A DNA stretch of 64,000 nucleotides from Anaerolineaceae bacterium (GTDB lineage: Bacteria; Chloroflexota; Anaerolineae; Anaerolineales; Anaerolineaceae), in NCBI GenBank assembly GCA_016841445.1, contig JAENZD010000002.1:434001-498000 (forward strand), given 5' to 3'. Shown here piece by piece: positions 3,894-23,192 of this stretch. Under the pieces are notes generated by a model. That model was not told the origin of the DNA, searched no databases, and saw only the letters and a list, made by a program, of their open reading frames with translations. Positions within the stretch are counted from its first letter, which is position 1. Each line of letters starts with the position of its first letter. A program made the translations under genes and the position numbers.

Positions 3894-6833
3894 ATGAAAA
3901 TTCATAAAAAATTATTTAAGGCTTTTGGCGCATTACTGGTTACAGCGCTGCTGTTTGCAGCGGTGCCAATGAACGAGGTTGAAGCGGCAACGCTTTGTGT
4001 CAATCCTGGTGGCACGGATGGCTGTTATGCGTCTATCCAGGCAGCTGAAGGTGCTGCAAGCGTGGGGGATATCATCGTCGTTGCCGATGGCACCTATGAT
4101 ATGACATCCGAAGGGGCAACAGCCGGCCAGCAAGGTTTGATCAATATTTATACACAGGTCACCATCATGGCAGAAGAAGATGGTAATGGCGTGCGGCCAG
4201 TAATTGATGCCACGGGCGTTGACGGTGTATTCAAGATCCATCATTCCGAATTCTTTGGAGGCCAGGTGGTCATTGAAGGTTTCGAAATCACCGGCGATCC
4301 GAGTGCAGGAATTGCCATCACATCAGCCATGTGTGACTCGGCTGATCCTGCAGCCGTGATCATTCAGGATAATGTTTTCCATGGGATGATCGGCGGGATT
4401 GATGCCTGGGGTACTGGCTTTTGTAATATTGGCGAAGGTGAAGAACCCCGCGTGGAAAACCTTGTAATTTCTGGCAATGAATTCTATGATCTGGGTCTTG
4501 ATGGAGTCCAGGAAGGTTTTGGGATTTTGCTGGAAGGGCTCAGCGATTGGACGGAGGCCGGGAGTACTTTTGCCGCCGTGGTTGAAAACAACATCTTCCA
4601 CGATTTACAAAATAACGGAGCTAATCCAAGCGGCGGTATTGTCCTGGAAGAACCAGGGGCAGCGACGCCCAAACCCGGCAATGTCTTAATTTCAGGGAAT
4701 GTGTTTAATTCTGGTGTGGGCATGAATATCGCGATTTTTACCAGTGATGTTGCGACAACGGATATTTCATTGAACAATTTCAACAATTCTGGATACGATG
4801 TTTATAATACGACCGCCGGGGTGGTTGATGCTTCTCCCAACTGGTGGGGCAGTGTTGAAGGACCTGGTAGCGGTTTGATTTTGGGTGATGCTGAAACCAA
4901 TCCCTGGTGCGGCGAATCAGCCTGCAGCTTCCTGATCCACGATGTCGTGCCGGAAGGGGCAGAAACCCCCGGTGAGGCCCTTGTAAGGGTTCTTGGGAGC
5001 ACAGCAGAAGGCGATGAGGTTCAAGTTCCTGCAGGCACCTATGCTGTACCTGGCGGTTTTACGCTGGATGTCCCTGGCGTGCAAGTTTTTCTGGCTGATG
5101 GTGTGGTGATTGAAAACGAATCACCCTGTTTTACCGTCACAGCGAATAATACGAAAATCACTGCTGAGAGCCTTGGCGGGGCAGTCTGTACGCCGACTGC
5201 GACCTCAAATGGTATTGATGTTAATGCAGGCCTGACGGGTGTGACGATCGAAGGGATTGAGATCAGCGGTGAAACCGGCACACATGGAATTTACTTTGCT
5301 GGCGCCGTCACGGATGTGATCATCCGGGATATGTATATCCATGATATGGCGGCAGGCGATGGCGTTCATTTCACGGCAGAACCCGGTGGGTATGTTGAGA
5401 TCAAAGGAAACCTCTTTGAAAATAACTTTGGTTTTGGTGTGAATAACGCGGCTGGTACGACAGATATCGACGCGACCTACAATGCCTGGGGTGATTATGC
5501 TGGACCTGCTGGCCCAAGCGGCGACGGTGTGAGCACTTTTGTGGATGCTGACCCATGGACGCATGTGGATGTTTTCACGGGTTGGGTTGATGCTTCATCC
5601 CGCTATGAAGACGAGTTGGCCTATAACGATGGCAAGACCATCACTTACGAGGTGAAAGCGAACCTGCAAAATGCGATTGGCGCTGAATTCACCCTGAATT
5701 TCGATCCAGCGTATTTGCAGGTTGTAAGTGTCACAAATGGATCTGTCTTTACCCTGGCAGAAAACCTGGTCGCTGTGGATTATGATAACGTGGCTGGAAC
5801 GGTCACCTTTAATGCCGCTGCAACATCTGCACAAAACGGGGCAGGCCTGGTGCTGTATACGGTTGAGTTTGAGGATGTGGCGGTTACAACCGCTGCGAAC
5901 GCGTTAACCTTTGGTGGAGAGGAACATTTTGCAATGAACCCTGGTATGGGTTCATCATTAAATATTTATGCCTCAGCATTGACCGGTACAACAGATGTGA
6001 ATATTTACGACCTGCCGACCCTTTCGATTAACCCGCTGGCGACCTTTGCCGTGGGAAATGCCAAGGAATTTACGCTCACGGTTACCAATCCGGCGACCGG
6101 GCGTGCCTACACTGATTTGAATGTTGACCTGGGTGTTCCTGCAGGCGCTGTCCTCGAATATTGGAATGTTGGTGCCTGGAGTGCTTATGTGGATGGTGTC
6201 GATATTGGTGCTTTGGAGGTCGATGATACTGCGGATGTGCTGTTCCGCATTACATTTGCTGACCCGGGTGCAAATCTCGTATCGGTTGATCTGAATGATG
6301 GCAGCATCTTCCTCGTAACAGATGACTTTTCTTTCACTGTACTGGATTCCTATACGGTGACCGGTTCAGTTCAACTGCAAGGACGATCGGTACGTGAAGG
6401 CGTGATTTTAAAGCTGTTCAACCTGGATTACCCTGAATACACCTATGAAACAACCTCGGTCGAGCTGATCTCCGGAAACTTTGAATTTACAGATGTAGCT
6501 TATGGGAATTACCGGATCGAAGTGGTGCAGGACCGCTACCTGGATATTGTCCAAACCAGTGCGGTTACCTTCCTCATCAATGGGGACCTCGCCCTAGAAC
6601 GCCTCGAACTTCGAGGTGGTGACGTGGATAACAGCGAAAAGGTTGATATCGCCGATGCTTCAATCGTCGGTACGAATTATGGGAGCACCGGCAGTAATGC
6701 TGCGGATGCGAACTTCGATGAAAAAGTAAATATCTTTGACCTGGCTATGGTCGGAGGGAACTATAATTTGCAATCCGATGGGGTACAGGCAGGCACATAT
6801 GCTTACCTGGCCTGGACACCGCTCGGAGACTAA
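3894..6833 (+). CDS. Secreted beta-helix protein with cohesin-like and dockerin domains
   Basis: A 979-residue exported protein. The ATG at 3894 was chosen because it follows GTGGAGGAA at good spacing and begins a standard signal peptide (residues 1 to about 31, core KAFGALLVTALLFAA). Residues about 35-560 are right-handed beta-helix repeats of the pectate-lyase superfold, with SPNWWGS and YNAWGD turns. About 580-695 is cohesin-like (EFTLNFDPAYLQVVSV). A beta-sandwich and a CNA-B-like module follow. A type I dockerin sits at about 907-960, with two calcium-loop halves, DVDNSEKVDIAD and DANFDEKVNIFD. No catalytic residues of a polysaccharide lyase can be assigned, so it is probably an adhesive or structural surface protein. 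A related 1766-residue protein starts at 12348. Cohesin genes follow immediately, the likely partners of its dockerin. Confidence 0.85.
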   Translation: MKIHKKLFKAFGALLVTALLFAAVPMNEVEAATLCVNPGGTDGCYASIQAAEGAASVGDIIVVADGTYDMTSEGATAGQQGLINIYTQVTIMAEEDGNGVRPVIDATGVDGVFKIHHSEFFGGQVVIEGFEITGDPSAGIAITSAMCDSADPAAVIIQDNVFHGMIGGIDAWGTGFCNIGEGEEPRVENLVISGNEFYDLGLDGVQEGFGILLEGLSDWTEAGSTFAAVVENNIFHDLQNNGANPSGGIVLEEPGAATPKPGNVLISGNVFNSGVGMNIAIFTSDVATTDISLNNFNNSGYDVYNTTAGVVDASPNWWGSVEGPGSGLILGDAETNPWCGESACSFLIHDVVPEGAETPGEALVRVLGSTAEGDEVQVPAGTYAVPGGFTLDVPGVQVFLADGVVIENESPCFTVTANNTKITAESLGGAVCTPTATSNGIDVNAGLTGVTIEGIEISGETGTHGIYFAGAVTDVIIRDMYIHDMAAGDGVHFTAEPGGYVEIKGNLFENNFGFGVNNAAGTTDIDATYNAWGDYAGPAGPSGDGVSTFVDADPWTHVDVFTGWVDASSRYEDELAYNDGKTITYEVKANLQNAIGAEFTLNFDPAYLQVVSVTNGSVFTLAENLVAVDYDNVAGTVTFNAAATSAQNGAGLVLYTVEFEDVAVTTAANALTFGGEEHFAMNPGMGSSLNIYASALTGTTDVNIYDLPTLSINPLATFAVGNAKEFTLTVTNPATGRAYTDLNVDLGVPAGAVLEYWNVGAWSAYVDGVDIGALEVDDTADVLFRITFADPGANLVSVDLNDGSIFLVTDDFSFTVLDSYTVTGSVQLQGRSVREGVILKLFNLDYPEYTYETTSVELISGNFEFTDVAYGNYRIEVVQDRYLDIVQTSAVTFLINGDLALERLELRGGDVDNSEKVDIADASIVGTNYGSTGSNAADANFDEKVNIFDLAMVGGNYNLQSDGVQAGTYAYLAWTPLGD

Positions 6834-6843
6834 ACAGAGATCA

Positions 6844-6873
6844 TGCCAGGCTGTGACTTTGCCCAGCCTGGCA
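6844..6873 (+). other. Hairpin after the first dockerin gene
   Basis: A perfect 10-bp stem TGCCAGGCTG / CAGCCTGGCA with a 10-base loop lies 10 bases after the stop codon. No U-tract follows, so it is more likely an mRNA-stabilising or partial-stop hairpin than a full terminator. A hairpin with the same CAGGCTG/CAGCCTG core follows the second dockerin gene. Confidence 0.6.
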
Positions 6874-6917
6874 GCAGATCGGTCAATTGACTGTTGTAAA
6901 AAAAGGAAAATAGGGCA

Positions 6918-6947
6918 GCTTCCCAGTTGAATAAGCAACTGGGAAGC
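6918..6947 (+). other. Perfect 12-bp hairpin before the cohesin-TM gene
   Basis: GCTTCCCAGTTG and CAACTGGGAAGC pair perfectly around a 6-base loop, 17 bases before the ATG at 6965. No T-run follows. It probably modulates expression or stability between the large dockerin protein and the cohesin gene. Confidence 0.55.
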
Positions 6948-6964
6948 ACCTCAGGACTTATTCT

Positions 6965-7915
6965 ATGAAGCGCTCATCTTTGCTCCTGACAATGGCAGTT
7001 TTAATGGCAGGGCTATTTATCATTTCGACAGCCTCAGCCCAATCAGGAGTTGGCCTCTATTTAACTCCCGAACAGGTCAGTGTTCTTCAAGGAAGCATGG
7101 TGACGCTTGAATTAAAGGTGATGGACGGACTCGATGTGAATGCATTTGATGTTGTAATCAACTATGACCAGGACCGTTTGCTGCTAACAGATTGGCAGCA
7201 CGGTGAATATCTGACAGGACTCTTTTGTGTGCATGTGGTTGAAGAAATCGGCCACCTGGAACTGGGCTGCACCCAGGTTGCACAGCCTGCGGTTAGCGGC
7301 AGCGGGACACTGCTGAGCCTGACATTTGAGACACTGGTAGAAGGTGAAGCAGCGGTTGAAATTGCCAGCGCTGAATTGGCTGACCCCAATGGTTCGAAAT
7401 CAACCCCCTGGCTGGGAGATAGCCTGATTATTGTTGAGATACCGACATCTATCCCCACAACAACATTCACACCAACGATCACCGCTACCTGCACAGATTT
7501 GCCGACATCTACGAAAAAACCAAAGCCAACCGCCAGTTCGACGGCTCGGGTGATGCCAGCAATACCATCAACAGGAACACCAACAATAACATTGACGCCA
7601 ACTTCAACCCTCAGCCCAACATGGATTGAGACGGAACAATGGGTGACAACATCCGAACCTTACAACGGCAGCGTTGGCTTGACCGAAACAGCCGCGCCAG
7701 GTGTTAGCACAACACCACTGCCATCCTTTGACCAGGAAACGGGTGTGGATATCAGAAATGTTTTTGCTGAAGAAGAGAATGAGCCTCAAAATACGGAATC
7801 GGGGAAGGAACAAGGCCAAAATGTTTTCCCGTTATCCAAGTACTGGTGGGCTTTCCTTATCGCCGTCATTTTAACAACAGGTTTGGGTGTTTATGCAAAA
7901 ATCAGGCATCATTAA
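6965..7915 (+). CDS. Membrane-anchored cohesin protein
   Basis: A 316-residue protein with a signal peptide (about 1-25), one cohesin domain (about 28-160; NAFDVVINYD, VSGSGTLLSLTF) and a Thr/Pro-rich linker (about 165-230). A hydrophobic C-terminal span, YWWAFLIAVILTTGLGVYA, is followed by a short basic tail. This is the layout of an anchoring scaffoldin: an outward-facing cohesin tethered by its C-terminus. AGGA at 6953-6956 supports the ATG. It follows the dockerin-bearing beta-helix gene and precedes another cohesin gene, so the dockerin of the former is a plausible ligand. Binding is inferred. The cohesin fold call rests on pattern recognition. Confidence 0.8.
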   Translation: MKRSSLLLTMAVLMAGLFIISTASAQSGVGLYLTPEQVSVLQGSMVTLELKVMDGLDVNAFDVVINYDQDRLLLTDWQHGEYLTGLFCVHVVEEIGHLELGCTQVAQPAVSGSGTLLSLTFETLVEGEAAVEIASAELADPNGSKSTPWLGDSLIIVEIPTSIPTTTFTPTITATCTDLPTSTKKPKPTASSTARVMPAIPSTGTPTITLTPTSTLSPTWIETEQWVTTSEPYNGSVGLTETAAPGVSTTPLPSFDQETGVDIRNVFAEEENEPQNTESGKEQGQNVFPLSKYWWAFLIAVILTTGLGVYAKIRHH

Positions 7916-7938: not shown

Positions 7939-10503
7939 GTGAATAGACGAAACCAAATTCGGGTTTGGGTGATATTCTTAATTTCTATCTGCTTAATTGT
8001 CATGCCACATTCCGTTTTATCCCAGGGGTTAACAGCGCGGGTTTATATCGATCCGAGTCAATCATCAGCAGCCACCTGCGGCACACATCAAATAGCAGTC
8101 AATGTGGAAGATGTTGCAAACCTGACAGCTTATCATCTTGAGATCAGCTTTGACCCCACTGTGGTTGAAGTGTTGGATGTTGAAAATGGTGCGTTCTTGA
8201 GTGAGCCGGCGGATGTTGCATATTTTTATGAGCCAACCAACGAGATCGATAATGAGAATGGAAAGATCATTTTTGGGATGGCGCAGCAAGGGGTTGAAGA
8301 TAACCCATTGGTAGAACCGCAGTCGGGTTCAGGCAGCCTGATCGTGATCACGCTTCAGGCATTGGTCCCCAATGACAGCACGCTGTTCGTCATTGATGAT
8401 GTAGCGAGCCACATGGTGGAATGGCCAAGCGTATTACCCATTGAATTCACCACCACAGACGGCGAGGTTAGCACTGAATCCTGTGCACCAACGGATATTG
8501 CCCTCTCGAATGCGACAATCCCAGAAAATGAACCTGTTAGCACGCTTGTCGGTAATTTTTCAGCCACCGATGCTGATACGGGCGATACCCTGGTTTATAC
8601 CCTGGTGGACACAACCACCTACCCGGATAATGCGCGCTTTACGATTGATGGTACGGCACTCAGATCTGCAATCGTCTTTGATTTTGAAGACCGGGACCCC
8701 TCAGACTATACGATCTTTGTCCGGGTGACCGATTTTGGCGGGAAATTCTTCGAAGAAGCTTTTGTAATTTCGGTGACGGATGTCAACGAAGCCCCTGAAG
8801 CGGTAAATGATACCTACAGCACACTGAAGAATGAGCCTTTAATAGTCGACGCCCCGGGTGTACTTTCAAATGATACTGATGTGGATTTGGATTCATTATC
8901 AGCTATTAAGGTGAGCAATCCGCCCTCCGGAGAGGGTACGGTTGTGTTGGCGGCTGATGGCGAATTTTCCTATTTTCCGCCTGCAGGCTGGACCGGCAGT
9001 ACCAGCTTCACCTATTATGCCAGTGACGGCAGTTTGCCTTCGAACACAGCGACTGTGACGATCAACGTCAACGAAACCAATGACCCGCCGACCGATATCA
9101 CCCTCACCCCGACCAGCCTGGCAGAGAACCTCCCAATAGGATCTGCAGTGGGTACATTTGGCACGGTGGACCCTGACAACCCGGGTGATTCTTTTGTTTA
9201 TACACTGGTGTCCGGTGCTGGCAATGATGATAACGCCCAGTTTTCTATCAGCGGGGGTACGCTGGTTTCGGGTGCGGTGTTTGACTATGAGACGAAAAAC
9301 ACCTACAGCATCCGTGTTCGCAGTACTGACCAGGGGAGCTTGTGGACAGAAAAAAGCTTCACGATTAACATCACAGATGCTAACGACGCCCCTGTGGCTT
9401 ATGATCAAAACCTTGAAACTGACCAGGGCACACCCATTGAGATCACCCTCGAAGGCTATGACCAGGACGGCGATACTTTTGACTTTGCCCTCGTAGGTGC
9501 ATCGCCACTGCACGGATCGATGCCTTGGACTCCGCCTGTACTGACCTATTCACCTGAAGTTTCTTTTAAAGGCGTTGATTCCTTCAAGTATCGGGTGATT
9601 GATGAGCACGGCGCAAGCAGCAACACTGCCACGATCACGATCAAGGTGATTGGGGACTTCTGCCTGGAAGTGGAGCCCGTGAGCCTTTCGCAGACATTGG
9701 AAGTGGGAACGACAGACTCCCAGACATTGACATTGACGAACACTTGCGGTTATGACGTGCCATTTTCAACGGACAAGATCGGGATATTTGATTTCGAAGA
9801 AGGTTTTGAGGAAGGCCTGATGCCCCCCTCTGGTGGATGGGAGACGGTCCATAATGGAACTACTGGTAACGTATGGGGAATTACAACGATTCCAGCGGCT
9901 GTTTATGAAGGGAATTATGCTGCTTTTATTAATTGGGATGCAACCAACCCGTCTGATGAATGGCTTTTGACACCTGTAATCAATGCAACAGATGCTGCGA
10001 ATTTGGAACTGTCTTTCTGGGCATATTCAAATATAAATTATCCTACGGCGACAATGCAGGTTTGGGTAGCAGATGAAAATGGAAATGTAATCACAGATTT
10101 TTCAACAGAACCTTTGTGGGATATGGTCCGTGACGAATCCTGGGCAGCTAATGCACTTAGAGAAGTGAATGTTGATTTGAGTGATTTCGATGGCTACGGC
10201 CTTATAAGAATTGTATGGCGATATGTTGGTGTCAATGGTACAGGTTTTGCTTTAGATAATGTTAATATAACCAGTACTTTACCTGCGTTATGGCTCTCAA
10301 TTGATCCAAGTGGAGCGACTATCAATAGTTTTGAAACACTACCAATAAATGTAATATTCGATGCGAATAGCTTGGATGTTGGTGAATATCTGGCAGGTGT
10401 TTCAATAATCAATGAACCTTATCCGATTCTCTCTGTTCAAGTCACTTTAGATGTGAATGCCAGTGGAACCAACTATTTTTATTTACCATTGGTAATAAAG
10501 TAA
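7939..10503 (+). CDS. Secreted cohesin / cadherin-like multidomain protein with LPLV tail
   Basis: An 854-residue exported protein. A GTG start at 7939 is chosen because AGGA lies 8 bases upstream and a signal peptide begins there (VIFLISICLIVM). Order: cohesin (about 35-180; YHLEISFDPTVVEVLDV), cadherin-like repeats with PENEPV and AENLPIG starts, a VCBS/Ig-like repeat with EAPEAVNDTY, a further cadherin-like repeat, and an Ig-like repeat. A jelly-roll domain at about 610-760 (FEEGFEEGLMPPSGGWE) resembles choice-of-anchor/MAM modules. The protein ends in FYLPLVIK, a tail also seen at the end of the protein at 17750-18280. It has no membrane span, so it is probably retained by the tail or by protein contacts. 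Likely a cell-surface adhesion or scaffold protein. Confidence 0.78.
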   Translation: MNRRNQIRVWVIFLISICLIVMPHSVLSQGLTARVYIDPSQSSAATCGTHQIAVNVEDVANLTAYHLEISFDPTVVEVLDVENGAFLSEPADVAYFYEPTNEIDNENGKIIFGMAQQGVEDNPLVEPQSGSGSLIVITLQALVPNDSTLFVIDDVASHMVEWPSVLPIEFTTTDGEVSTESCAPTDIALSNATIPENEPVSTLVGNFSATDADTGDTLVYTLVDTTTYPDNARFTIDGTALRSAIVFDFEDRDPSDYTIFVRVTDFGGKFFEEAFVISVTDVNEAPEAVNDTYSTLKNEPLIVDAPGVLSNDTDVDLDSLSAIKVSNPPSGEGTVVLAADGEFSYFPPAGWTGSTSFTYYASDGSLPSNTATVTINVNETNDPPTDITLTPTSLAENLPIGSAVGTFGTVDPDNPGDSFVYTLVSGAGNDDNAQFSISGGTLVSGAVFDYETKNTYSIRVRSTDQGSLWTEKSFTINITDANDAPVAYDQNLETDQGTPIEITLEGYDQDGDTFDFALVGASPLHGSMPWTPPVLTYSPEVSFKGVDSFKYRVIDEHGASSNTATITIKVIGDFCLEVEPVSLSQTLEVGTTDSQTLTLTNTCGYDVPFSTDKIGIFDFEEGFEEGLMPPSGGWETVHNGTTGNVWGITTIPAAVYEGNYAAFINWDATNPSDEWLLTPVINATDAANLELSFWAYSNINYPTATMQVWVADENGNVITDFSTEPLWDMVRDESWAANALREVNVDLSDFDGYGLIRIVWRYVGVNGTGFALDNVNITSTLPALWLSIDPSGATINSFETLPINVIFDANSLDVGEYLAGVSIINEPYPILSVQVTLDVNASGTNYFYLPLVIK

Positions 10504-10725: not shown

Positions 10726-11385
10726 TTAAGGTCTAAATGGGTCGTCTGTCGCCGTTGGTGGTGGTGGATCGGTTGGGTTTGGCGGCTTAGATGTTGCTGT
10801 CGGCGGCACATAGGTGTAAACAGGGTAGGTATTGGTCAGGGTGGGTGTTGGCGTGGGGGTTTCCGTGGGCGTTTCCGTGACCGTTGGGGTCTCGGTGGTG
10901 GTTGCGGTAGGGCTGGGTGTTTCTGTGTGTGTGGCTGTTGGCGTCAGGCTGGGGGTTTCTGTCGGGGTGCTGGTCGGCGCTTCGGTTGGGGTCAGGGTTC
11001 CCGTGGGCGAGGCAGCGGCAGTCCGTTCATCCCGACGGGCCAGGAGGCCCTGCGCGAAGCCAGCGATCTGCTCTGAGAAGGCGAACCCGAGCGCGATCAC
11101 GATGATCCCTGCCAGAACAGCCCAAACCCATTTCTTGTAAAAGATATCCAGCCGCCTTGTCCGATTTGCACGGAGCGACCTTGGAACGCCTTTTTTCCAC
11201 CCGTCGACATAACCCGGGCAGTTGGTATGATTGATGTGGAGGCAGTGATTTTGCTGGTAGGACTGCAGGATCGGTTCAGGTTTATCCGACGCGTAGCAAC
11301 TATTCCCCTCATGGGGGAAGTTTGCCCTGGACATTTGATCATTGATCAGACCGAGGTGGGGGCAGATGAATTCGTTGGGTTCCAT
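10726..11385 (-). CDS. CPHLGL Cys/His-rich domain, single TM, Thr/Pro-rich tail
   Basis: A 219-residue protein with three parts. Residues 1-75 form a Cys/His-rich domain (ICPHLGL, SCYASDKPEPI, SYQQNHCL, NCPGYVDGW) that looks metal-binding. A membrane span lies at about 88-108 (VWAVLAGIIVIALGFAF), preceded by basic residues, so the N-terminus should be cytoplasmic. The rest is almost pure Thr/Pro/Ser/Glu repeats and would face outside. I recall the N-terminal domain from Chloroflexota proteins, often fused to LysM, but its function is unknown to me. It is convergent to the first cohesin block. A short paralogue at 24635-24886 is convergent to the second block. Confidence 0.75.
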   Translation of the reverse strand: MEPNEFICPHLGLINDQMSRANFPHEGNSCYASDKPEPILQSYQQNHCLHINHTNCPGYVDGWKKGVPRSLRANRTRRLDIFYKKWVWAVLAGIIVIALGFAFSEQIAGFAQGLLARRDERTAAASPTGTLTPTEAPTSTPTETPSLTPTATHTETPSPTATTTETPTVTETPTETPTPTPTLTNTYPVYTYVPPTATSKPPNPTDPPPPTATDDPFRP

Positions 11386-11882: not shown

Positions 11883-12347
11883 AAGAACGTTCCAAGTTAT
11901 ATCAACTGCTTGGACGCTCACTACAGAACCCATGCAAAATCGAGCTGGGGATTGATAACGATTGAACACAACACATAAACAATAGAAAAAATCTGGAAGG
12001 GGAGGGTTTGGTTTGACGTCGCAAAGGGAAGCATCGTCGATCACGATTACTTATCATGAAAAGAAATTACCGCTGAATGCCGGTTCCTTAAAGGCCGGCT
12101 GTTTTGTTTAATTAGAGAAAATCTATCTAAAAAGTTGACTGTCACCGGGATGCGACCACTTTTTCGAGGCGCACTGCATGATGCAGGGGGAAAAAGACCC
12201 TTGTCATTATCCATCCTCATCCATGGTGAGGAAAGGAGGGCGATATCGGGAGTGGCTTTATGAAATCTATTGAGCCTGCTCGAGGGGTGAAAGGGGAACC
12301 TCGGGGGGAATGATAAAAACCAACTATTTTTTGGAGGAAAAATCAAA
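11883..12347 (+). promoter_or_regulatory. Long conserved 5' leader of the second dockerin gene
   Basis: A 465-nt leader with the same ordered blocks as 3423-3893: CTGGAAGGGGAGGGTTTGG, a GCCGG/CCGGC hairpin followed by TGTTTTG (about 12076-12105), CTTGTCATTAT, GAGGAAAGGAGG, then a CGAGG/CCTCG hairpin with a GA-rich loop (about 12279-12305). TTTGGAGGA precedes the start codon. I could not match it to a riboswitch class I know. Confidence 0.5.
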
Positions 12348-15300: not shown

Positions 15301-17648
15301 TCTTTGAGCTCAACGGCGCAACACTTGGTGCTGGCTCACCCGCATTCACCATTTTGGGCGATGGCATCACCATCAACGGCCCTGGTGTGCTGGATGGCGA
15401 TGGGATTGACGATGCTGTTCTGGTTGCAGATGGTGTTTATGACTTCACGATCGACGAAGTCGAAATCACGGACTGGGCGAATGGTGTTCACTTTGATGGC
15501 ATCGTCAATAACACATTGATTGTTGATAACTACATGCACGGCCTGACAGGTGACGGTGTTCTCTTTGATTCGGAACCCGTTGCTGAAACCGAAGTCAGCC
15601 TGTTTATCCAGGGCAACCTATTTGATATGGCGACGATTGGTGGTTTTGGCGTGAACGCCCCCGCAGATCTCGACGTAACCTACAACTCATGGGGCGTGAT
15701 TACTGGCCCTGCTCCAGAAACAGATCTTCCCGCAGAAATTACGACATTTGATCCCTGGACGCATGCTGATCTGGAAGTCTACCAGGCTGGTGGCGGCACA
15801 TCCTATCCTGACCAGGTAGTACAGGGTAACACGATCACCTATACCGTGAGAGGTAATTTTGCGAACGTGATGGGTGCTGATTTCGTGCTCAAATATCCTT
15901 CCAATGTTTCTGTTGACTCAAAGGCACTGCTTGATTTGTTTGACCTTGAGATACTGGAGGACTCCGGCACTGAACTGCACTTCTATGGTTCGATGATCCA
16001 GACCGATCCGGGTACCGGGGTTATTGCTCCGAGTGCGCAGTTGAATGGCACGTATGATCTGTTCACGGTGACCTTCACCGGTGATGTACTGGGTAAGGAT
16101 CTCGTCCTCGATGTTGATGAGACCACGGACTTCTTCTCTATGTCACCCGCTGAAGGCCCTTCGAATTATGTTTACGGCACAGACTGCTTGGATGTGACCA
16201 CCCTTGAGGTGATCGCGCTGCCCACGATTGATATCATCCCGGTTCCCAACCAGGATTACGTGGCTGGCTTACCGATTGAATTCACGGTGCTGGTCAATAA
16301 TGATGACGGGGGCGCTTACGGTCCTGTCCATCTGGACTTTGACTTACCTGCAGATGCGATTTTAGAATACTGGGACGGTGATAGCTTTGAGCTCGTTGCT
16401 GATCCTAACACCTTTGATTTCGGTACTTTAGGCGTTGGTGATGATGTGGTTGACCTGTTCCATGTGACCTTTGTGGCTGATGGCAGTAATGTGGTTACTG
16501 TAGATCTGGTGGATACAACATATGCCGTTGATTTAGCTACGACAGATGAAACATTCATAACCGCAGGCGTGGAATTACTGGGTACGATTGCCATGCAAGG
16601 CCGCACGATGCGCTCCGGTGTGCCGCTGACCCTTACGGATATGAATGGTGACCCGGTTTATGGGCCATTCGATGTACTCTCGACCTCTGAACTGGCGTAC
16701 AACGTGCTCTTTGCTGGTGTGGATAGCAGCATATTTGAGATCACGACGAACCAGGCTCGGTACCTGAACGTGACCGCTGATTTGGATAAGCACATTTACG
16801 TTCATAGTGCTTACACCATCCCGGCGCTGGAGCTGAAAGGCGGCAACGCCATTTGGACAGACAACGTCATAAATATTGACGACGCTTCTGAAGTTGGTAC
16901 CAATTATGGTGCCACGGTTGATCAGGATGCGGATGTGAACTTTGACGGCAAAGTCAACATTCAAGACCTGGCGCTGGTCGGCGGTAACTATGACCTGACT
17001 TCAGCGGATGCCTATGCTGACTGGTTAGCCCCTGGCTTCCCCACGGAAGGTGCGATCGTCTCAGGTCAAATTCAAAATTATTCTGCGACTGAATTTGCCG
17101 GTGATTTGGATGGGGATTATGCCCTCCATATTGAAGGAGCTTTCACAGGTGCATTCACGGGCTTTGAAGTTCCCTTCGCAGGTACTGTTTCCGGTGATAT
17201 CAACGGTACAGTCACCGGAACAATGAATATCAATGGTGTCGATACGCTGTTTGGTACGATCATTGTTGACGGCACGGGTGAAGAGCTGGCTATTGTTGGT
17301 ATATTCGCCAAGTCAGGCTTAGGCGGCCATTTCTACGGTCAGATCATTGCGGATTACAACCCGACCTTCGTCACATCGATAACAGTTAGTGGCGATGGTG
17401 GAGAAATTGTCGCAATTGGTAACACACTGCAAATGTTAGCGCATGTTTTACCAGTAGATGCTTCTGATGATGTGGTTTGGTCAGTCTGGCAGAACCCGGC
17501 AACGGCAGGTGAAACCTCACTGGCAACCATTGATCCGAATACCGGTTTATTGACGACCTTTGGTTCCGGTGATGTGGTAGTGATTGCAAAAGCACTGGAT
17601 GGCTCTCATGTCTCCGGGCAGGTTGTCGTTACGATCACAAATCCCTAA
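12348..17648 (+). CDS. Giant secreted beta-helix protein with cohesin-like, dockerin and Ig-like domains
   Basis: A 1766-residue exported protein related to the one at 3894. Signal peptide about 1-32 (KAFGALLVVAMLFAALP). An N-terminal region of about 200 residues is not recognised. Beta-helix repeats run from about 270 to 1130, rich in Asn and with SPNWWGS. A cohesin-like domain (GNTITYTVRGNF, ADFVLKYPSNV) covers about 1160-1285. A beta-sandwich and a CNA-B-like module (QGRTMRSGV, ARYLNV) precede a type I dockerin at about 1498-1552 (VNFDGKVNIQDLALVGGNY). Unlike its paralogue it continues with about 120 further residues and a bacterial Ig-like (Big_2-type) domain at about 1673-1766. The codons of the first third are more AT-rich by eye than the rest, which may mark a swapped domain. 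No enzyme active site is evident. Probably an adhesive surface protein held by cohesins. Confidence 0.83.
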   Translation: MKVQSKFIKAFGALLVVAMLFAALPAGNAKAQTTPTISHGTFGGAPYALVDPNVVNDFKNESLAIELGGYSSDTEYLTMEATLISFDGHSTYVTDRGGCIYILTVINGLEAGDIVEIDNNSLYNDGSGYYSFWDQSPYWLQIGDYTHTPGDKILDWLIYSEKVSDTEYRLVIGSGEYNLAENTDDLTSFIDDSFKLTRDIKVYRGETLSNPTTSSRGYITSSSEDTSSWSSPISADNLDTGDMTYSGVQNSYVDDDWAGSSNGDIVGGHIFGQDAFATIQQAIDGTTPGGTVNVSAGTYYPSSTILVDKPVSIIGPTTDVAEVRGVGGGVDIVFQITSSDVTLEYLSITLDSAPTTYDALIDIPDNVISNINILDNEIYVADQGTDMSTYWARAIQIGRYVTNAVVSRNEMYNTRSGLVVRYNAAVSITDNIIYNTKGGIMNYTGSVADADNRVMTGNSWGIVHNEWDIVWNSGGGPYVMDMGVYVLGVSQANNDAYVVSQMTTLPDKNDMTGNRSHVFVNATTGTTILDSDNGNMNLPYAKIQDGIDAAVPGGTVYVAAGTYVENVVVNKSVEIAGAGQSVVTVMPALSAANPCTNSSLCGGAASNVFLIDADNVTIHDLTIDGDNPGLISGIVRGEADVDARNGIIKNGTYDVLEVYNTTVKNIFLRGIYSTGGSFNFHDNTVTNIQGDYASIAMFAWGGPGTMQNNVVSYANDAISANHSKGINFLNNTVTFSASGIHTDNSNDGGGVADLIQGNNVDCTGVAGAYGVWTFVPYAAPTVNNNTVTNCSVGLSAWGEGAPVTTNFTNNTVTGDGSAESVGAYITTDLIGWGYTDVSVNFTGNQINGFETGLYFTADEQSWNSYPYEAKTINATFENNKIINNSIDAEAGSSGTLNIDASPNWWGSPCGPSVVIGDVAYAPWYIDETMIPTTSIEPVTGSFTIPTTMSMLERNAVIECAAPDTVFTFETGAHIGGIVVNNDDLIFELNGATLGAGSPAFTILGDGITINGPGVLDGDGIDDAVLVADGVYDFTIDEVEITDWANGVHFDGIVNNTLIVDNYMHGLTGDGVLFDSEPVAETEVSLFIQGNLFDMATIGGFGVNAPADLDVTYNSWGVITGPAPETDLPAEITTFDPWTHADLEVYQAGGGTSYPDQVVQGNTITYTVRGNFANVMGADFVLKYPSNVSVDSKALLDLFDLEILEDSGTELHFYGSMIQTDPGTGVIAPSAQLNGTYDLFTVTFTGDVLGKDLVLDVDETTDFFSMSPAEGPSNYVYGTDCLDVTTLEVIALPTIDIIPVPNQDYVAGLPIEFTVLVNNDDGGAYGPVHLDFDLPADAILEYWDGDSFELVADPNTFDFGTLGVGDDVVDLFHVTFVADGSNVVTVDLVDTTYAVDLATTDETFITAGVELLGTIAMQGRTMRSGVPLTLTDMNGDPVYGPFDVLSTSELAYNVLFAGVDSSIFEITTNQARYLNVTADLDKHIYVHSAYTIPALELKGGNAIWTDNVINIDDASEVGTNYGATVDQDADVNFDGKVNIQDLALVGGNYDLTSADAYADWLAPGFPTEGAIVSGQIQNYSATEFAGDLDGDYALHIEGAFTGAFTGFEVPFAGTVSGDINGTVTGTMNINGVDTLFGTIIVDGTGEELAIVGIFAKSGLGGHFYGQIIADYNPTFVTSITVSGDGGEIVAIGNTLQMLAHVLPVDASDDVVWSVWQNPATAGETSLATIDPNTGLLTTFGSGDVVVIAKALDGSHVSGQVVVTITNP

Positions 17649-17693: not shown

Positions 17694-17718
17694 ATTTGAC
17701 AAATAGAAAATCGGGACT

Positions 17719-17742
17719 CTGCCGGTGCGAAAGTGCCGGCAG
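17719..17742 (+). promoter_or_regulatory. Hairpin overlapping the ribosome binding site of the next gene
   Basis: CTGCCGG (17719-17725) pairs with CCGGCAG (17736-17742). The right arm overlaps the AGGG (17741-17744) that would serve the GTG start at 17750. The stem could limit translation of the cohesin gene. Confidence 0.45.
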
Positions 17743-17749
17743 GGTTCCT

Positions 17750-18280
17750 GTGAATGGCATTATGAAGAAATTATTACTTTTATTGTATGTTTTAATGGCA
17801 TTGGTTTTAACCTGTCCAACCCCGGCATTGGCTCAAACCGGGACGGTGGTGCGCGTGAGCCCGTCGCTGATCAACCTGCAGCCCGGTGATACAGCAACGG
17901 TTGAAATTTGGGTTGATGATGTAGAGGCATTATATGGTTTTGCGGTAGAAATTCACTTTGACCCGGCAAAACTCTCAGCAGGGTCGACCGCACTGGGTGA
18001 TTTTTTAGATGAGGGATGGACAGCTTTTGATAGCGTTGACATTGTTAATGGCATTATTCAGTACGACATGGTCCAGGTTAATCCCAGCGAACCGAAATCG
18101 GGTTCGGGCGTATTGATGACCTTTACAATAACGCTGCTTGAATCGGTGAGCGAAACCAACCTGACGATCGATTCGATTTTACTCACCGACCGAAATGGCA
18201 CCGAGATACCTTGTGGTGTTGAAAATGGGGTCGTTCGGATGTATGAGAACGCTGTTTTTCTACCGCTGGTCATGCGCTAA
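17750..18280 (+). CDS. Single-cohesin secreted protein with LPLV tail
   Basis: A 176-residue exported protein: signal peptide (KKLLLLLYVLMALVL, ending ALAQ), one cohesin domain (EIHFDPAKL; VNPSEPKSGSGVL) and the C-terminal tail FLPLVMR. The GTG at 17750 has AGGG five bases upstream. An ATG at 17762 is an equally good signal-peptide start but lacks a visible ribosome binding site. It lies after the giant dockerin protein and before a cohesin-dockerin protein. Its lack of a membrane span suggests that the LPLV tail, shared with the protein at 7939-10503, has a targeting or retention role. That role is inferred. Confidence 0.78.
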   Translation: MNGIMKKLLLLLYVLMALVLTCPTPALAQTGTVVRVSPSLINLQPGDTATVEIWVDDVEALYGFAVEIHFDPAKLSAGSTALGDFLDEGWTAFDSVDIVNGIIQYDMVQVNPSEPKSGSGVLMTFTITLLESVSETNLTIDSILLTDRNGTEIPCGVENGVVRMYENAVFLPLVMR

Positions 18281-18321: not shown

Positions 18322-19302
18322 TTGAAGGCACGTTTGAAGTTCAGGCATTATTTTTTATTTTTTATTCTGGCTATTGCGCTGTTATTTGCTGGGTTTGAGA
18401 ACCGGCACCCAGTGCAGGCACAAACGGAGACGGTTTTGGCGGTTTCACCATCAGTGACAAATTTTTTTATCAACGGCGCCAGCACCGCGCAGGTGCAGGT
18501 CGTGATCAACGATGTGACACTGCTGAACGCTTTTGATATCACCCTCACTTATGATCCGGATGTGGCTCTTGTGACTTCCTGGTCAGCCGGCGGCTTTTTA
18601 AGCAACCTGTTTTACCTGATGAAGGTCAATAACCCCGGGTATTTAAGGATTGCCTGCACCCAGTTAGCGACCCCGGGCGTCAGTGGGAGCGGGGTACTGC
18701 TCAACCTGACGTTCAGCGCCGTTGGGTCGGGTTCGACGCCGCTGACGTTCAGTTCTGTGGCGCTTTCGAACTCTTCCAGCCAGTCGATTCCCGCAACGCT
18801 GCAAGATGGGACGGTCAATGCTGGTTTTATCGCTTTTGAACTTTCAGGTGCGATTTACGCCCAGGGGCAGGCGGACCGTTCGGGTATCCCGGTGGGCTTG
18901 GGTGTGGGACCCATCTACAGGCAGGGGCCTTTAGCTGCTTCGAGCACACCGGATTACGGGCTGAATCTTAGCTTTTCATCGATTCCGAGCGGTGACAGCT
19001 ATCTTTTCACTACAACCATGCCCCGCTATTTGAATATCGATGCCGCCCAGGGGAAAACGGTGACCGTCTCCGGCGGGGATGTCGGATTATCTCCCCTTGA
19101 GCTGCTGGCGGGGGATGCGGTCGTCGATAACGCCATTACAACCGCTGACCTGGACGCCATCCGGGATGTGTTTGAGACGGTTGGGGCTGGCTTGAATGCT
19201 GATGTGAATTTTGACGGCCTGGTCAATATCCAGGATTTGGCGCTGGCTGGCGGCAACCTCGGCCTGACCGGGGCAGATGCTTATGCCGGCTGGCAGCCCT
19301 GA
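18322..19302 (+). CDS. Cohesin-dockerin adaptor protein
   Basis: A 326-residue exported protein with a TTG start, supported by AGGA at 18309-18312. Signal peptide to about residue 34 (VQAQ). The cohesin domain covers about 36-165 (NAFDITLTYDPD; VSGSGVLLNLTF). A CNA-B-like module follows (AQGQADRSGI, MPRYLNI). The C-terminal dockerin covers about 259-315; its second calcium loop is canonical (VNFDGLVNIQDLAL) but its first (VVDNAITTADLDAI) is weaker. Having both partners in one chain, it can bridge an anchored cohesin and a dockerin protein, like an adaptor scaffoldin in cellulosomes. The bridging role is inferred. Confidence 0.8.
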   Translation: MKARLKFRHYFLFFILAIALLFAGFENRHPVQAQTETVLAVSPSVTNFFINGASTAQVQVVINDVTLLNAFDITLTYDPDVALVTSWSAGGFLSNLFYLMKVNNPGYLRIACTQLATPGVSGSGVLLNLTFSAVGSGSTPLTFSSVALSNSSSQSIPATLQDGTVNAGFIAFELSGAIYAQGQADRSGIPVGLGVGPIYRQGPLAASSTPDYGLNLSFSSIPSGDSYLFTTTMPRYLNIDAAQGKTVTVSGGDVGLSPLELLAGDAVVDNAITTADLDAIRDVFETVGAGLNADVNFDGLVNIQDLALAGGNLGLTGADAYAGWQP

Positions 19303-19389
19303 TGGAAGATGGGCGCGATCGGCTGATATATGGTGAATCCGTTACCTTTCGCAGCGGTTGCGGTGACGGCAAGGGTGTAAAATTATAGG

Positions 19390-20352
19390 ATGATGCGATG
19401 GCAGAAAAAATCTTTCAAATGGGGTTGGATTTTAGCGCTGGTACTTTTCGCAGTGCTGGTGACCCCGTCGCGTGCCTCGGCGCAGGACGCCTTTCAGCTG
19501 GCTGTCGTTCCAACCTATTCAGAACTGCCGGTGGGGACGGATTTTGTCCTCGAGGTGCAGATTGAGAACGGCTTGAATTTGAACGCGTTTGATGTGACGT
19601 TGACCTATGATCTGGAGGTTTTAAGCTTGTTAGATTGGGAGCATGGCGATTATTTTTCGAACCTGGCGGTGGTGAGCGAGGTGAACCAGCCCGGATCGCT
19701 GCGCGTGGCAGCCACACAGCTCGCGACCGCGCCCGTTTCCGGGGATGGAGTTTTGCTCACGCTGACATTCGATGCCAAAGCCCTGGGTTCCACGCCAGTG
19801 GAGATCACCGATATTCAATTTGCAGATTCGGGGAATAATAGCCCGCAACCGGACCTGGTGCACGGCGCTGTGACGGTCGTCCAGATCCCAACTTATACGC
19901 AGACTCCCTCTCTGACCCCCACACCGACACCCACCCTGACGGTGACGCCTACATCGACACCGACCATGACCCCAACGCCCACCATCACACCGACCCACAC
20001 AACCACCTTCACGGCGACGATCACGGAAACGCCTTCCGCCACGCCTTCAAACACAGCCATTATGAGCGCTACACCGGAGGGGTCAATGGGGCAGCAGGTG
20101 ACATCAACATCGCTGCCCGGGGACAGCGGCCCTGGGACACCCATACCAGGTGAAACAATAAGTGATGGAGATACCCAGCCTGAACAGCCCGGGGAAGCAG
20201 AGGACGTGCCATCACAGGATGACAGTGAGCGCAATTTGCTGAAATGGCTGTTATGGAGTATCCTTGGGATTGGATTGATTGCCCTGGCGGGAATGGTAAT
20301 AGTGATTATTCAACGCAGTAAGAAAGAAAAAAAAGAGGATTATCTTTTATGA
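19390..20352 (+). CDS. Membrane-anchored cohesin protein
   Basis: A 320-residue protein. Signal peptide to about residue 34 (SRASAQ), cohesin domain about 36-165 (NAFDVTLTYDLEVL; VSGDGVLLTLTF), Thr/Pro-rich linker about 175-225, then an acidic stretch. A membrane span at about 284-308 (LWSILGIGLIALAGMVIVII) ends in a Lys-rich cytoplasmic tail. Two adjacent ATGs (19390, 19393) are possible starts. The stop overlaps the next gene by four bases, so the two anchored cohesins are probably made in equal amounts. It resembles the protein at 6965 in domain type and order. Confidence 0.8.
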   Translation: MMRWQKKSFKWGWILALVLFAVLVTPSRASAQDAFQLAVVPTYSELPVGTDFVLEVQIENGLNLNAFDVTLTYDLEVLSLLDWEHGDYFSNLAVVSEVNQPGSLRVAATQLATAPVSGDGVLLTLTFDAKALGSTPVEITDIQFADSGNNSPQPDLVHGAVTVVQIPTYTQTPSLTPTPTPTLTVTPTSTPTMTPTPTITPTHTTTFTATITETPSATPSNTAIMSATPEGSMGQQVTSTSLPGDSGPGTPIPGETISDGDTQPEQPGEAEDVPSQDDSERNLLKWLLWSILGIGLIALAGMVIVIIQRSKKEKKEDYLL

Positions 20353-21212
20353 GATTATTGAAGAATCGTCATCTTCTTAGTGTAATTTTATTATTGGGAT
20401 TATTGTGCGGCGTGACGAACACAGCCGCAGCACAGGATACGGCTGAGATTGGCTTTTTCGAGGCTATCGAGGTGCAGCCTGAACAGGCGTTTGAAGTGCC
20501 CGTGATCGTGGGAAATGTGGCAGACCTTTACGCCGTTGATGTTGAAATCCGGTTTGACCCGGCCGTTTTGCAGGTGGAAGATGCCTCACCTAACCAGGAG
20601 GGTACCCAGGTGGGGTTGGGGACTTTCCTGGACGCAGGCTTGATCTTGTATAACCAGGTTGATAATGACCAGGGCTTGATCCGGTTTGCGATGACCCAGG
20701 TGAACCCCAGCGAACCGAAATCCGGTGAGGGTGTGCTGCTGGTGCTGTATTTCGTTGCCCAGTCTGAAGGAGACTCCACTTTGGAAGTTTCTTTTGCTGA
20801 AGCCTCGACACGGTTGGGCGAAGCCATCGCGCTGGAGGGCGTGGATGGTCTGGTGACCGTTTCGAGCGGGGCACCAGAGCGACAGGCTACCGAGATCCCG
20901 GTGCAGGATGTTGGGCAGGTAACGGTCATCCCGACCTCAGCGCCAACCGCCACGCCGACCATCACCCCCACTTTTGATCCGACGCCAACATTGGAAATGA
21001 GCGAAGGTGAAGCGGTGTCGGAATTGCCCGGTGAAGGATCAGCTGGAGAAGAACCTGGCGAGGTTGAGAAAAACCAGGCGGAAGGAATTCGGGATGAAGA
21101 CAATGCAGAAGCAGGTGCCAGCATCCTGGATTACTGGTGGGTTGTCCTGATCGTGGTCCTGGCGGCGGGTGGGGCAGGGGCTTACCTGATGTTGAGTAAA
21201 AAGAAATCATAG
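20349..21212 (+). CDS. Membrane-anchored cohesin protein (second subtype)
   Basis: A 287-residue protein with signal peptide (about 1-27, NTAAAQ) and one cohesin domain (about 30-175; YAVDVEIRFDPAVL; VNPSEPKSGEGVLL). A Thr/Pro linker, an acidic Glu-rich stretch and a C-terminal membrane span (WWVVLIVVLAAGGAGAYLML) with a KKKS tail follow. Its ATG overlaps the previous stop. The cohesin is of the subtype seen at 17750 and 21252 (LY-x-V-D-x-E motif), unlike the preceding anchored cohesin, so the two may recognise different dockerins. That specificity is inferred. Confidence 0.8.
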   Translation: MRLLKNRHLLSVILLLGLLCGVTNTAAAQDTAEIGFFEAIEVQPEQAFEVPVIVGNVADLYAVDVEIRFDPAVLQVEDASPNQEGTQVGLGTFLDAGLILYNQVDNDQGLIRFAMTQVNPSEPKSGEGVLLVLYFVAQSEGDSTLEVSFAEASTRLGEAIALEGVDGLVTVSSGAPERQATEIPVQDVGQVTVIPTSAPTATPTITPTFDPTPTLEMSEGEAVSELPGEGSAGEEPGEVEKNQAEGIRDEDNAEAGASILDYWWVVLIVVLAAGGAGAYLMLSKKKS

Positions 21213-21251
21213 CAGGAAATCATTGAATAATTGGGGAGGGAGCTTAGGTAG

Positions 21252-23192
21252 ATGAAAAAAAGATTAAACATCGTGATCAGCATTCTTGTCTTTTTCCTGG
21301 CTGCTGGGGGTATTGTTTCAAGCCGTGTTTTGGCTTCGGATGGGGAGAGTGGGGTTCCGGCGGGTGTGCTGTCCGTAGATGCGGGTACGCTCACGCTGAA
21401 GGAATCGGAGGATGGGTCCACCTGGACATCGATCATCGGAAACCTGACAGCGGGTTATTCCATGGTCCTGGACCTGGTTAACACGTATGAATACCTGGAC
21501 ATCGCCACAATGACTGCGACGCCTGCCCTGGCAGATGGCATGCATGCGTTTTATTTTGATGCTTTTCGGGCACCGGATGGGTTCTGGGATTACTGGGCAG
21601 TCAAAGGTGTGGTTGATGGTGCGACAGGCTGGCAGGGGCTGATGTGGTCGATCATCAGTGGTGATGCGCCGATGTTCTATTTGAATGCTGCCAGCGGGGT
21701 TTATTCCCTGGTGGACGGCTTTCAATACCAGTTTGACAGCACCATTGCGCCTTTACGGGTGAATGGGGATTACCCGCTGGGCACCTATCACTTTGGCGGG
21801 TATGTCAACGAAAGCATCGCAGATGAGGAATATTTAAACATCCAGATCACATTTACCAAGGAAGCGACCGTTTCGATTACACCTCAAACCAGCACGATCG
21901 ATGGCTGCGGGTTTGTGGATGTTTACCTCCATCTCGAGGATGTCCATGACCTTTACGCCGTGGATATTGAACTGTCATTTGAGCCGACTGTGCTCGAAGT
22001 GGTTGATTTAAAAGCAGGTGAACCGGGGGTCAATTTTGAACCGATCAATACCTGGTTCGAAGTTGGCTATTGGGTTCATAACGAGGCCGATAATGGGACG
22101 GGAAAAATCCGCTATTCCGCCACGCAAACGAACACGACCGCACCGGTGGATGGCAGCGGGGACATTGCCAGGATCCGCTTTATTACCAAATCGATCGGCA
22201 GTAGTGACATCACCATCTCTAAAGCGGAGCTTTCAGACCGGGATGGCTACCTAGTGGGGCGGCCGGTCAATGAACTGGGTGCTTCCATCACGACGGACTT
22301 TTCAGCAGCAGCAGGAGTGGATCTGTATATCATCCGGTTGGATGCCTCAACCGTGCAGTTGAGCTGGCCGGAGCAAACGGTGGATACAGGCGCAGGCTAT
22401 CTCCTGCACCGGTCAACCCTGCCGTATTTTGATATTACAGATCCAGAAGTTGTCACTTACGACACGGGATTTACAGTGGATGCGGGCAGCGTCACCTATA
22501 ACGATGCTGTCCTGGGGGATGTGGTCAATAACTTCTTTTATGGTCTGCAGGTGACCTGCTCAAACGGCTTCACCAGTCCGCTCTCGGACCAGGTGGGGAA
22601 GTTTGAATTTGAGCTCTTTGAATCCAATGCGACGGACTTTGGATGGATTGGTATGGTCTTAGAAAATGATAGCATTGTCAATTCACAGGACCTCGGGGAT
22701 GATATTGAAAGTCATATTTATTCAGGTACTATAACGGTTAAGACCATCAGCCGGTGGAACGCGAGTGGGCAGGTCTACACAACTTATGACCATAATACAG
22801 GCGGTGGGAAATTTGATGTATTTGTCAAGCAACCTTACCGGGTTGAGATAGATATTGTTGGAGCAACATTTGGTAGTGTCGTTTGGGCTCAGGTCGGTCA
22901 ATTGCCTGCAATTACTGAGGATACTTATACCTTATTTGAGACATCCACAACAGATTTTAGCTGGATTCTCCAACCGCTTGATAAAGTTGATATCTCCAAT
23001 ACAACTCAGCTCGCACAAGAAATTGAGGCCACTTCAAGTGATGCGGTCACCGTACTTGCAATTGCCCGATGGAATGGAACTGGACAGACATTTTCAAGCT
23101 ACGCAAGGCCAGCTGAATCAACAACCAGGTTTGGTTACCCCTATCGGATTGAGGTAAATGTGCTTTCGGGAACAAGTGTGACATGGCCTTAA
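21252..23192 (+). CDS. Secreted cohesin protein with Fn3-like domain and tandem C-terminal repeats
   Basis: A 646-residue exported protein: signal peptide about 1-29, a beta-rich N-terminal domain of about 180 residues that is not recognised, and a cohesin at about 210-345 (YAVDIELSFEPTVLEVVDL). An Fn3-like domain (about 360-445; AGVDLYIIRLDASTVQLSWPE) is followed by two copies of a roughly 88-residue repeat (about 452-540 and 557-643). These share LFE-x-x-x-TDF-x-WI, TV-x-x-I-x-RWN-x-x-GQ and a closing PYR-V/I-E motif. No membrane span or LPLV tail. GGGAGGGAG about 15 bases upstream serves as a ribosome binding site. Role unknown; probably part of the same surface assembly. Confidence 0.72.
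   Translation: MKKRLNIVISILVFFLAAGGIVSSRVLASDGESGVPAGVLSVDAGTLTLKESEDGSTWTSIIGNLTAGYSMVLDLVNTYEYLDIATMTATPALADGMHAFYFDAFRAPDGFWDYWAVKGVVDGATGWQGLMWSIISGDAPMFYLNAASGVYSLVDGFQYQFDSTIAPLRVNGDYPLGTYHFGGYVNESIADEEYLNIQITFTKEATVSITPQTSTIDGCGFVDVYLHLEDVHDLYAVDIELSFEPTVLEVVDLKAGEPGVNFEPINTWFEVGYWVHNEADNGTGKIRYSATQTNTTAPVDGSGDIARIRFITKSIGSSDITISKAELSDRDGYLVGRPVNELGASITTDFSAAAGVDLYIIRLDASTVQLSWPEQTVDTGAGYLLHRSTLPYFDITDPEVVTYDTGFTVDAGSVTYNDAVLGDVVNNFFYGLQVTCSNGFTSPLSDQVGKFEFELFESNATDFGWIGMVLENDSIVNSQDLGDDIESHIYSGTITVKTISRWNASGQVYTTYDHNTGGGKFDVFVKQPYRVEIDIVGATFGSVVWAQVGQLPAITEDTYTLFETSTTDFSWILQPLDKVDISNTTQLAQEIEATSSDAVTVLAIARWNGTGQTFSSYARPAESTTRFGYPYRIEVNVLSGTSVTWP

Follow-up and report, generated by a model that had tools for sequence, protein, structure and literature searches.

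A recurring cohesin and X-dockerin gene cluster in Anaerolineaceae as a candidate non-cellulosomal docking system

The cluster among described cohesin-dockerin systems

The closest described counterparts of the gene cluster reported here are the type II systems of cellulosomes (the CipA X-dockerin with SdbA, and the ScaA X-dockerin with ScaB), in which an X-module and a dockerin form a dyad. The cluster lies at positions 3894 to 23192 of a 64,000-nucleotide stretch of contig JAENZD010000002.1 from an Anaerolineaceae bacterium; we refer to this whole stretch as the window. It encodes nine cohesin proteins, named A to I here, with one cohesin each and a dockerin additionally in A, D, and F. Like the cellulosomal systems, it has the X-module and dockerin dyad with the same fold, the cohesins of H, E, and I are closest to type II cohesins, and F has the cohesin, X-module, and dockerin layout of Protein Data Bank (PDB) entry 3kcp. 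Unlike those systems, the cluster comes without enzymes, CBM3, or a multi-cohesin scaffoldin, its predicted tether is transmembrane (TM) and involves no SLH domain, and the first calcium loop of its dockerins mostly reads GNAxWxDNxID.

Cohesin-dockerin proteins also occur outside cellulose use. Non-cellulosomal examples have been published for anaerobic methanotrophic (ANME) archaea (PMC9012536), and those of their sulfate-reducing partners have been grouped with adhesins for consortium formation (PMC10553843). The proteins of the cluster have secretion-type N-termini along with cohesins and dockerins, and an adhesion role here is putative. The ANME proteins are described as variable, including scaffoldin-like proteins with up to five cohesins, and with dockerins carried by ABC substrate-binding proteins. 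The cluster, in contrast, has a recurring gene order, single cohesins, and predicted TM anchors.

We know of no operon with anchor, adaptor, and client roles for the cohesin of Archaeoglobus fulgidus. That cohesin (2xdh) is likewise non-cellulosomal and aligns to the modeled cohesin of F with a Z score of 17.3. Cohesin modules of Clostridium perfringens (2vo8, 2jh2, 2w1n) also have the same fold and stand outside a cellulosome; unlike those of the cluster, they belong to glycoside hydrolases, going by the entry titles of 2vo8 and 2w1n.

For the lineage itself, a study of digester Anaerolineae reports that five curated genomes and strain UNI-1 lack both cohesins and dockerins (PMC4877987). No cohesin-dockerin system of this kind in Chloroflexota or Anaerolineae is apparent from titles or abstract openings, which cover few subscription journals; within that scope, and as in the initial annotation of the window, made from its sequence, we know of no characterized system with this layout. 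Non-cellulosomal cohesins and dockerins are already known; what is new is a recurring, enzyme-free, membrane-tethered system with type-II-like X-dockerins. A recurring cohesin-dockerin operon is present in at least 12 of the 147 genomes sampled from one family, compared to none of the six Anaerolineae genomes examined earlier. In outline, the cluster resembles a cellulosome reduced to its anchoring side, with proteins that would serve as anchors, adaptors, and clients, and it offers a compact set of natural pairs for specificity studies and a candidate for surface building or aggregation in such bacteria.

Cohesin and X-dockerin modules

We scanned the genome that carries the cluster (3.35 Mb, 8 contigs, 98.85% complete) and found cohesins at seven places (E up to 1) and dockerins at three (A, D, and F), all of them inside the cluster. 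The cohesin scan was not exhaustive, having missed the cohesins of E and D, so weak cohesins elsewhere are possible. In the single proteins, the Pfam family Cohesin (PF00963) scored above its cut-off in seven of the nine, namely, A (29.9 bits, residues 596 to 676 of the 3843 frame), C, E (27.1), F (42.4), G (50.9), H (37.8), and I (33.3). The cohesin of B fell below the cut-off (16.4 versus 24.1 bits), and that of D was not reported. A cohesin-dockerin cluster had been proposed for this locus, and these matches, together with the X-dockerin profile and the modeled fold of the D dockerin described below, bear this out. The proposed count of seven cohesins rises to nine with those embedded in A and D, which had been missed, and both partners occur together in A, D, and F rather than in one protein.

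The embedded cohesin of D (15783 to 16205; residues approximately 1146 to 1286) is degenerate. We identify it as a cohesin because A and D are similar over a span that covers it (residues 898 to 1552 of D and 328 to 978 of A) and because the Pfam family matches corresponding proteins of three relatives (33.3 bits in L060, and 23.5 in L051 and 21.4 in L058, both below the cut-off). Our own cohesin hidden Markov model (HMM), which like our X-dockerin HMM was seeded with window sequences and iterated, also detects B and D; both were in the seed, so this detection is not independent. The cohesin of F, the only one of the nine whose fold was modeled, is a jelly-roll cohesin (residues 33 to 170 of the model) with Z scores up to 17.5.

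The dockerins of A, D, and F are each preceded by the same X-module of approximately 100 residues, and the whole unit of approximately 160 residues, here called the X-dockerin, is conserved across 25 sequences that are 33 to 57% identical to that of D. It lies at 6342 to 6821 in A and at 16560 to 17030 in D. Against the Dockerin_1 cut-off of 22.9 bits, the scores from the genome scan and from the single protein were 27.3 and 21.4 for A, and 18.5 (25.6 with its neighbors) and 13.8 for D; F scored 15.4 in the former and gave no match at E 0.5 in the latter. The Pfam check called for by the initial annotation thus succeeds for most cohesins and for the dockerin of A in the genome scan. Taken by itself, Pfam supports the dockerins of D and F weakly, and it is the X-dockerin profile and the predicted fold of the D unit that settle their identity. 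The profile matches type II X-dockerins in the PDB along almost its entire length, among them 4u3s (E 7.7e-9, positions 5 to 151 of 159), 4wi0, 5k39, and 2b59. An AlphaFold model of the D unit (23 rows; predicted local distance difference test [pLDDT] 96.3, predicted template modeling score 0.89) consists of a beta-sandwich, then two dockerin helices, and finally a short additional helix. Its top eight PDB matches are all type II X-dockerins (Z 13.4 to 15.6; the ninth reaches 6.9), and Foldseek places type II X-dockerins at E 2.7e-8 to 7.2e-7, with the next match at 1.7e-3. The structural check of single modules favors the proposed identities, and by the profile and the model of the D unit the dockerins of A, D, and F are type-II-like X-module and dockerin units. 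Their earlier designation as type I came from the name of the Pfam model; the number of three stands, and plain type I dockerins are ruled out by the profile and fold matches to type II X-dockerins.

The cohesins appear to fall into two classes. A profile built from H, E, I, and their relatives (15 rows, of which ten were H-type, three E-type, one I-type, and one a C-type relative, the C protein of the window being absent) best matched type II cohesins, with E 1.7e-10 for 3l8q, a two-cohesin chain of an Acetivibrio adaptor scaffoldin, and E of approximately 4e-6 for single type II cohesins. A profile of F, G, B, and relatives (13 rows) best matched the type I cohesin OlpA (3ul4, E 1.5e-6), along with many partial DARPin and ankyrin rows that we take to be spurious, and the F cohesin model is closer to type I entries (with Z scores up to 17.5) than to type II entries (14.0 to 15.1). 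The profile of client-embedded cohesins gave weak PDB matches only, and the type-I-like resemblance of those in A and D is weak. A tree of 72 cohesins, whose bootstrap had not settled, groups the F/G/B type (21 rows, support 98/94), the H type (12 rows, 96/94), the C type (10 rows, 98/93), the I type (3 rows, 100/100), and the client-embedded type, including that of A (9 rows, 100/99). The E-type rows form no clade, and some client cohesins fall elsewhere. The order of modules in F, a type-I-like cohesin, an X-module, and a type-II-like dockerin, is that of the C-terminus of CipA, and the CipA fragment 3kcp can be aligned with 210 residues of the F model, albeit loosely (root mean square deviation 10.6).

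The ten plus-strand genes at 3894 to 24315 form two sets, A-B-C and D-E-F-G-H-I-J. Within each set, neighboring genes overlap or are separated by no more than 132 bases, and approximately 1.8 kb lie between the sets. Proteins A and D are the giant clients. Client A (3894 to 6833, 979 residues) runs from a beta-helix (Pfam Beta_helix, 44.8 bits) through an embedded cohesin (5592 to 6008) and an Ig-like part to its X-dockerin; client D (12348 to 17648) has a NosD-like beta-helix region (Pfam NosD, above cut-off), the degenerate cohesin, an Ig-like part, the X-dockerin, and approximately 200 more residues. Dockerins had been described here as residing on giant beta-helix proteins, which fits A and D and not the adaptor F (18322 to 19302), a protein of 326 residues without a beta-helix. 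B (6965 to 7915), G (19390 to 20352), and H (20349 to 21212) each consist of a cohesin, a proline- and threonine-rich (PT-rich) linker, and a predicted C-terminal TM anchor. The three C-terminal membrane spans noted initially are recovered by a hydropathy count rather than a topology prediction: the best 19-residue values are 1.75 in B, 2.60 in G, and 2.23 in H, and at most 1.31 in the other six. Because a search of the genome for SLH domains came back empty (no match at E up to 0.01, with positive controls in 4), these TM cohesins are the obvious anchors.

Three further proteins appear to be secreted. E (17696 to 18280, start codon uncertain) is a small cohesin protein ending in FLPLVMR. C (7939 to 10503, start codon uncertain) has a cohesin, cadherin-like and Big_9 repeats, and a choice-of-anchor J domain, and ends in FYLPLVIK; such repeats are often found in adhesins, and one C-type relative has 12 Big_9 stretches. 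I (21252 to 23192) is a large protein with an internal type-II-like cohesin. NCBIfam assigns no family to seven of the ten proteins and repeat and anchor domains to C; its matches in D (NosD) and J (PelI) are far below cut-off.

Conservation and the proposed docking system

We sampled the family densely (147 genomes) and the phylum through 400 genomes. Within the family, cohesins were detected in 27 genomes (E up to 0.01), dockerins in 23 (E up to 0.05), and both in 20, versus 4.2 expected (hypergeometric p 6e-16). These counts include matches below the Pfam cut-offs; above them, cohesins occur in 21 genomes and dockerins in 18. We compared 20 stretches from 17 genomes, most of them picked by cohesin matches, which biases the gene order toward cohesin neighbors. 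Our HMM found the X-dockerin cassette in 11 of the 17 genomes, in addition to the genome of the window; a divergent cassette in G109 was excluded from the profile. Five of the 17 (G027, G067, G075, G082, and G086) have cohesins and no X-dockerin by this HMM, G027 despite Pfam dockerin matches, and the dockerin-positive G041 and G068 have no X-dockerin in the stretches examined.

The usual order on one strand is the client or clients, E (where present), F, G, H, and then C or I, so the layout of the window recurs in other Anaerolineae, as the initial annotation had proposed to check. Losses occur: F is missing from G026, E and G are missing from G073, and several contigs break off within the cassette. 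Client genes, defined as encoding X-dockerin proteins of more than 500 residues, number 17, counting those of L062 and L069. The next gene on the same strand encodes a cohesin protein in 16 cases, across a gap of 1379 bases in L052, and in the 17th another client gene intervenes before the cohesin gene; 16 of the 17 are in the window or in loci picked by cohesin matches. Loci picked by the X-dockerin alone also adjoin a cohesin gene, namely, L069, L076, L077, and five of six sister-family stretches. Because the gene order recurs and the cohesin clades are separate for most roles, the sequence data support the anchor, adaptor, and client roles first suggested for the window. Each relative has a single client or two of them, the N-termini of the clients differ, and a tail of cohesin, Ig-like part, and X-dockerin recurs in many; the docking kit thus seems to be the conserved part and the payload the variable part.

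In the phylum, X-dockerins occur in 27 of the 400 genomes (E up to 1e-5); four genomes of the window's family score above 170 bits, and the next best scores 95. Members of a sister family (f2) have a compact module of a cohesin-X-dockerin protein, a cohesin-TM protein, and a further X-dockerin protein (G257, G151, G471, and G476), or the last two at a contig end (G410); the module loci are L091, L092, L098, L099, and L101. L076 and L077 (Aggregatilineales; Anaerolineae) carry a similar trio. A scan of IMG/VR returned three loci that match over 26 residues only, and our X-dockerin HMM, run on two of them (L078 and L080), found nothing there.

We think it probable that the cluster encodes a non-cellulosomal, enzyme-free docking system at the cell surface, in which giant beta-helix clients dock onto membrane-held cohesins. 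The secreted giants A and D, with X-dockerins at or near their C-termini, would dock into the cohesins that H, and possibly G and B, hold at the membrane on PT-rich stalks. F would act as a mini-scaffoldin that docks in the same way and offers one further cohesin, extending the chain, and the secreted cohesins E, C, and I would cap or cross-bridge dockerins. Beta-helix and cadherin-like proteins would in this way be joined non-covalently, and in a calcium-dependent manner, into a surface layer or an adhesive matrix. This proposal draws on the predicted modules, the modeled folds of the D X-dockerin and the F cohesin, the layout, and the conservation. We infer binding, calcium dependence, and membrane topology, as well as a type II pairing of the X-dockerins with the H/E/I/C cohesin class.

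Several observations weigh against this proposal. The putative module-module interaction is based on sequence and single-module models. The second calcium loop matches the canonical pattern in all 25 X-dockerins, whereas the first is canonical in 4 of 25 by script, or in 5 counting L051:7486-7953, whose loop the script cut; an apparent sixth, in D, we read as a spurious hit within the X-module. Both loops are canonical in A, and only the second is in D and F. A type II X-dockerin is expected to have two canonical loops, which most of the set do not show, so we call the units type-II-like. In the model of F (eight rows), the X part has moderate confidence and the dockerin a pLDDT below 50, which is why the D unit was folded with 23 rows. 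The F, G, and B cohesins are type-I-like, yet the dockerins found in the genome are the three X-dockerins, with none lacking an X-module, which leaves this class without an obvious partner. One of the six sister-family stretches (G437) yielded no cohesin gene, and four X-dockerin stretches of G411, out of nine X-dockerin places, have none within four genes on either side; one X-dockerin protein of G411 is a beta-propeller protein. Finally, both sister-family X-dockerin proteins that we scanned combine an M23 peptidase with a cohesin and a dockerin (G257, L091; G476, L101, the latter also with GSDH), which points to general display and not to adhesion alone. An adhesive or matrix purpose is less certain than the docking system: because modules of the same kind carry a peptidase in the sister family, the evidence favors the display of variable clients at the surface over adhesion.

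These peptidases also bear on a reading that we consider unlikely, although it fares best among the alternatives, in which the beta-helix clients act on polysaccharide in the manner of lyases or epimerases and the cluster, as a reduced counterpart of the cellulosome, anchors and displays carbohydrate- or wall-active enzymes. Apart from the M23 and GSDH matches, one client of a genus relative has sub-threshold GH43 (19.5 bits, cut-off 32.2) and GH130 (16.3, cut-off 26) matches, and the L054 client has a sub-threshold pectinesterase stretch (20.9, cut-off 27). Against it, no catalytic family scores above cut-off in A, D, or 11 scanned clients of relatives, and F likewise has no catalytic Pfam family. 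The claim that no catalytic domain is fused to a dockerin therefore holds in the window, by Pfam, and does not extend to the sister family. The genome has no match to CBM3 or GH9 (E up to 0.01, with positive controls); GH48 also gave none, but its control gave none anywhere. The window has no multi-cohesin scaffoldin, only one cohesin per protein. With no dockerin-borne enzyme in the window and no CBM3, GH9, or SLH in the genome, a cellulosome is ruled out, in line with the non-cellulosomal use originally proposed.

It is improbable that the cohesins and X-dockerins are mere spacers or Ig-like building blocks that do not dock. Their sequences are divergent, the D cohesin is degenerate, and the first dockerin loop is mostly non-canonical, as such a role might allow; but 7 of the 21 invariant or near-invariant X-dockerin columns lie in a 19-residue stretch made up of loop 2 and the following helix, the loop 2 pattern is universal in the set, cohesins and dockerins co-occur strongly among genomes, and TM-cohesin genes stand beside X-dockerin genes in another family too.

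A bolder form of the docking system, which we offer as a long shot, is a two-tier enzyme-free scaffold that keeps the division into type I and type II for a cell envelope or consortium matrix, its orphan type-I-like class docking partners from outside the genome. If true, cohesin-dockerin pairing would be a specific cell-cell link in anaerobic communities. Least probable are two separate circuits, in which the X-dockerins serve the type-II-like class and the type-I-like F, G, and B, perhaps with A and D, capture a partner that this genome does not encode, such as the dockerin of a syntrophic neighbor: the type-I-like resemblance (weak for A and D), the confinement of dockerin matches to X-dockerins in this genome and in the twelve cassette genomes (except for a contig-end fragment in G114 and a match with an internal stop in G025), and the published proposal that cohesin-dockerin expression by ANME archaea and their sulfate-reducing partners serves the partnership (PMC10553843) favor it, but no partner is known, the type assignment is a ranking of profiles and folds, and both cohesin classes may bind the same X-dockerin.

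Shared leaders, C-terminal motif, and neighboring genes

The two clients share a plus-strand 5' leader of approximately 400 nt, at 3480 to 3893 before A and at 11940 to 12347 before D, which is partly present before the client of G025 (L047:240-690). Its shared blocks are CTGGAAGGGGAG, a terminator-like hairpin (GCCGG..CCGGC-TGTTTT), CCTTGTCATTAT, and an inverted repeat (CTCGAGG..CCTCG). The leader of A has no match in Rfam, and a scan of the window against that database returned two tRNAs and nothing else. The shared sequence suggests co-regulation of two client-led units.

A C-terminus resembling FLPLVMR is present in eight of nine cohesin proteins of 173 to 219 residues across the loci compared, that of L062 being the exception. 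It is absent from two longer cohesin proteins (227 and 236 residues) and present at the end of C. The sites are at 18257 to 18277 and 10480 to 10500 in the window, with further ones in L047, L048, L049, L051, L052, L058, and L065. In the genome of the window, the corresponding DNA pattern has 10 matches, compared to none in a backwards control; eight of the 10 end long open reading frames (ORFs), three of which have a secretion-type N-terminus in view. In 101 phylum genomes, [FY]LPL[VI]x[KRH]-stop has 139 matches versus 67 in the backwards control, and ten genomes with at least five matches each account for 107 of them, against 7 control matches in those ten. The motif is thus enriched in some genomes and not phylum-wide, and it is a candidate C-terminal sorting or anchoring tag.

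The last gene of the second set, J (23242 to 24315, plus strand), encodes a predicted secreted protein without a Pfam family. In G025, with two copies, and in G081, relatives of J follow I, and G075 has a relative as well. Downstream of the cluster is rpsB, as in G025 and G026. The interval between the two gene sets holds a minus-strand ORF (10726 to 11385) with a Cys/His-rich N-terminus (CPHLGL...), one hydrophobic span, and a PT-rich tail; it has relatives in L047 and, as a short version, in the window at 24635 to 24931.

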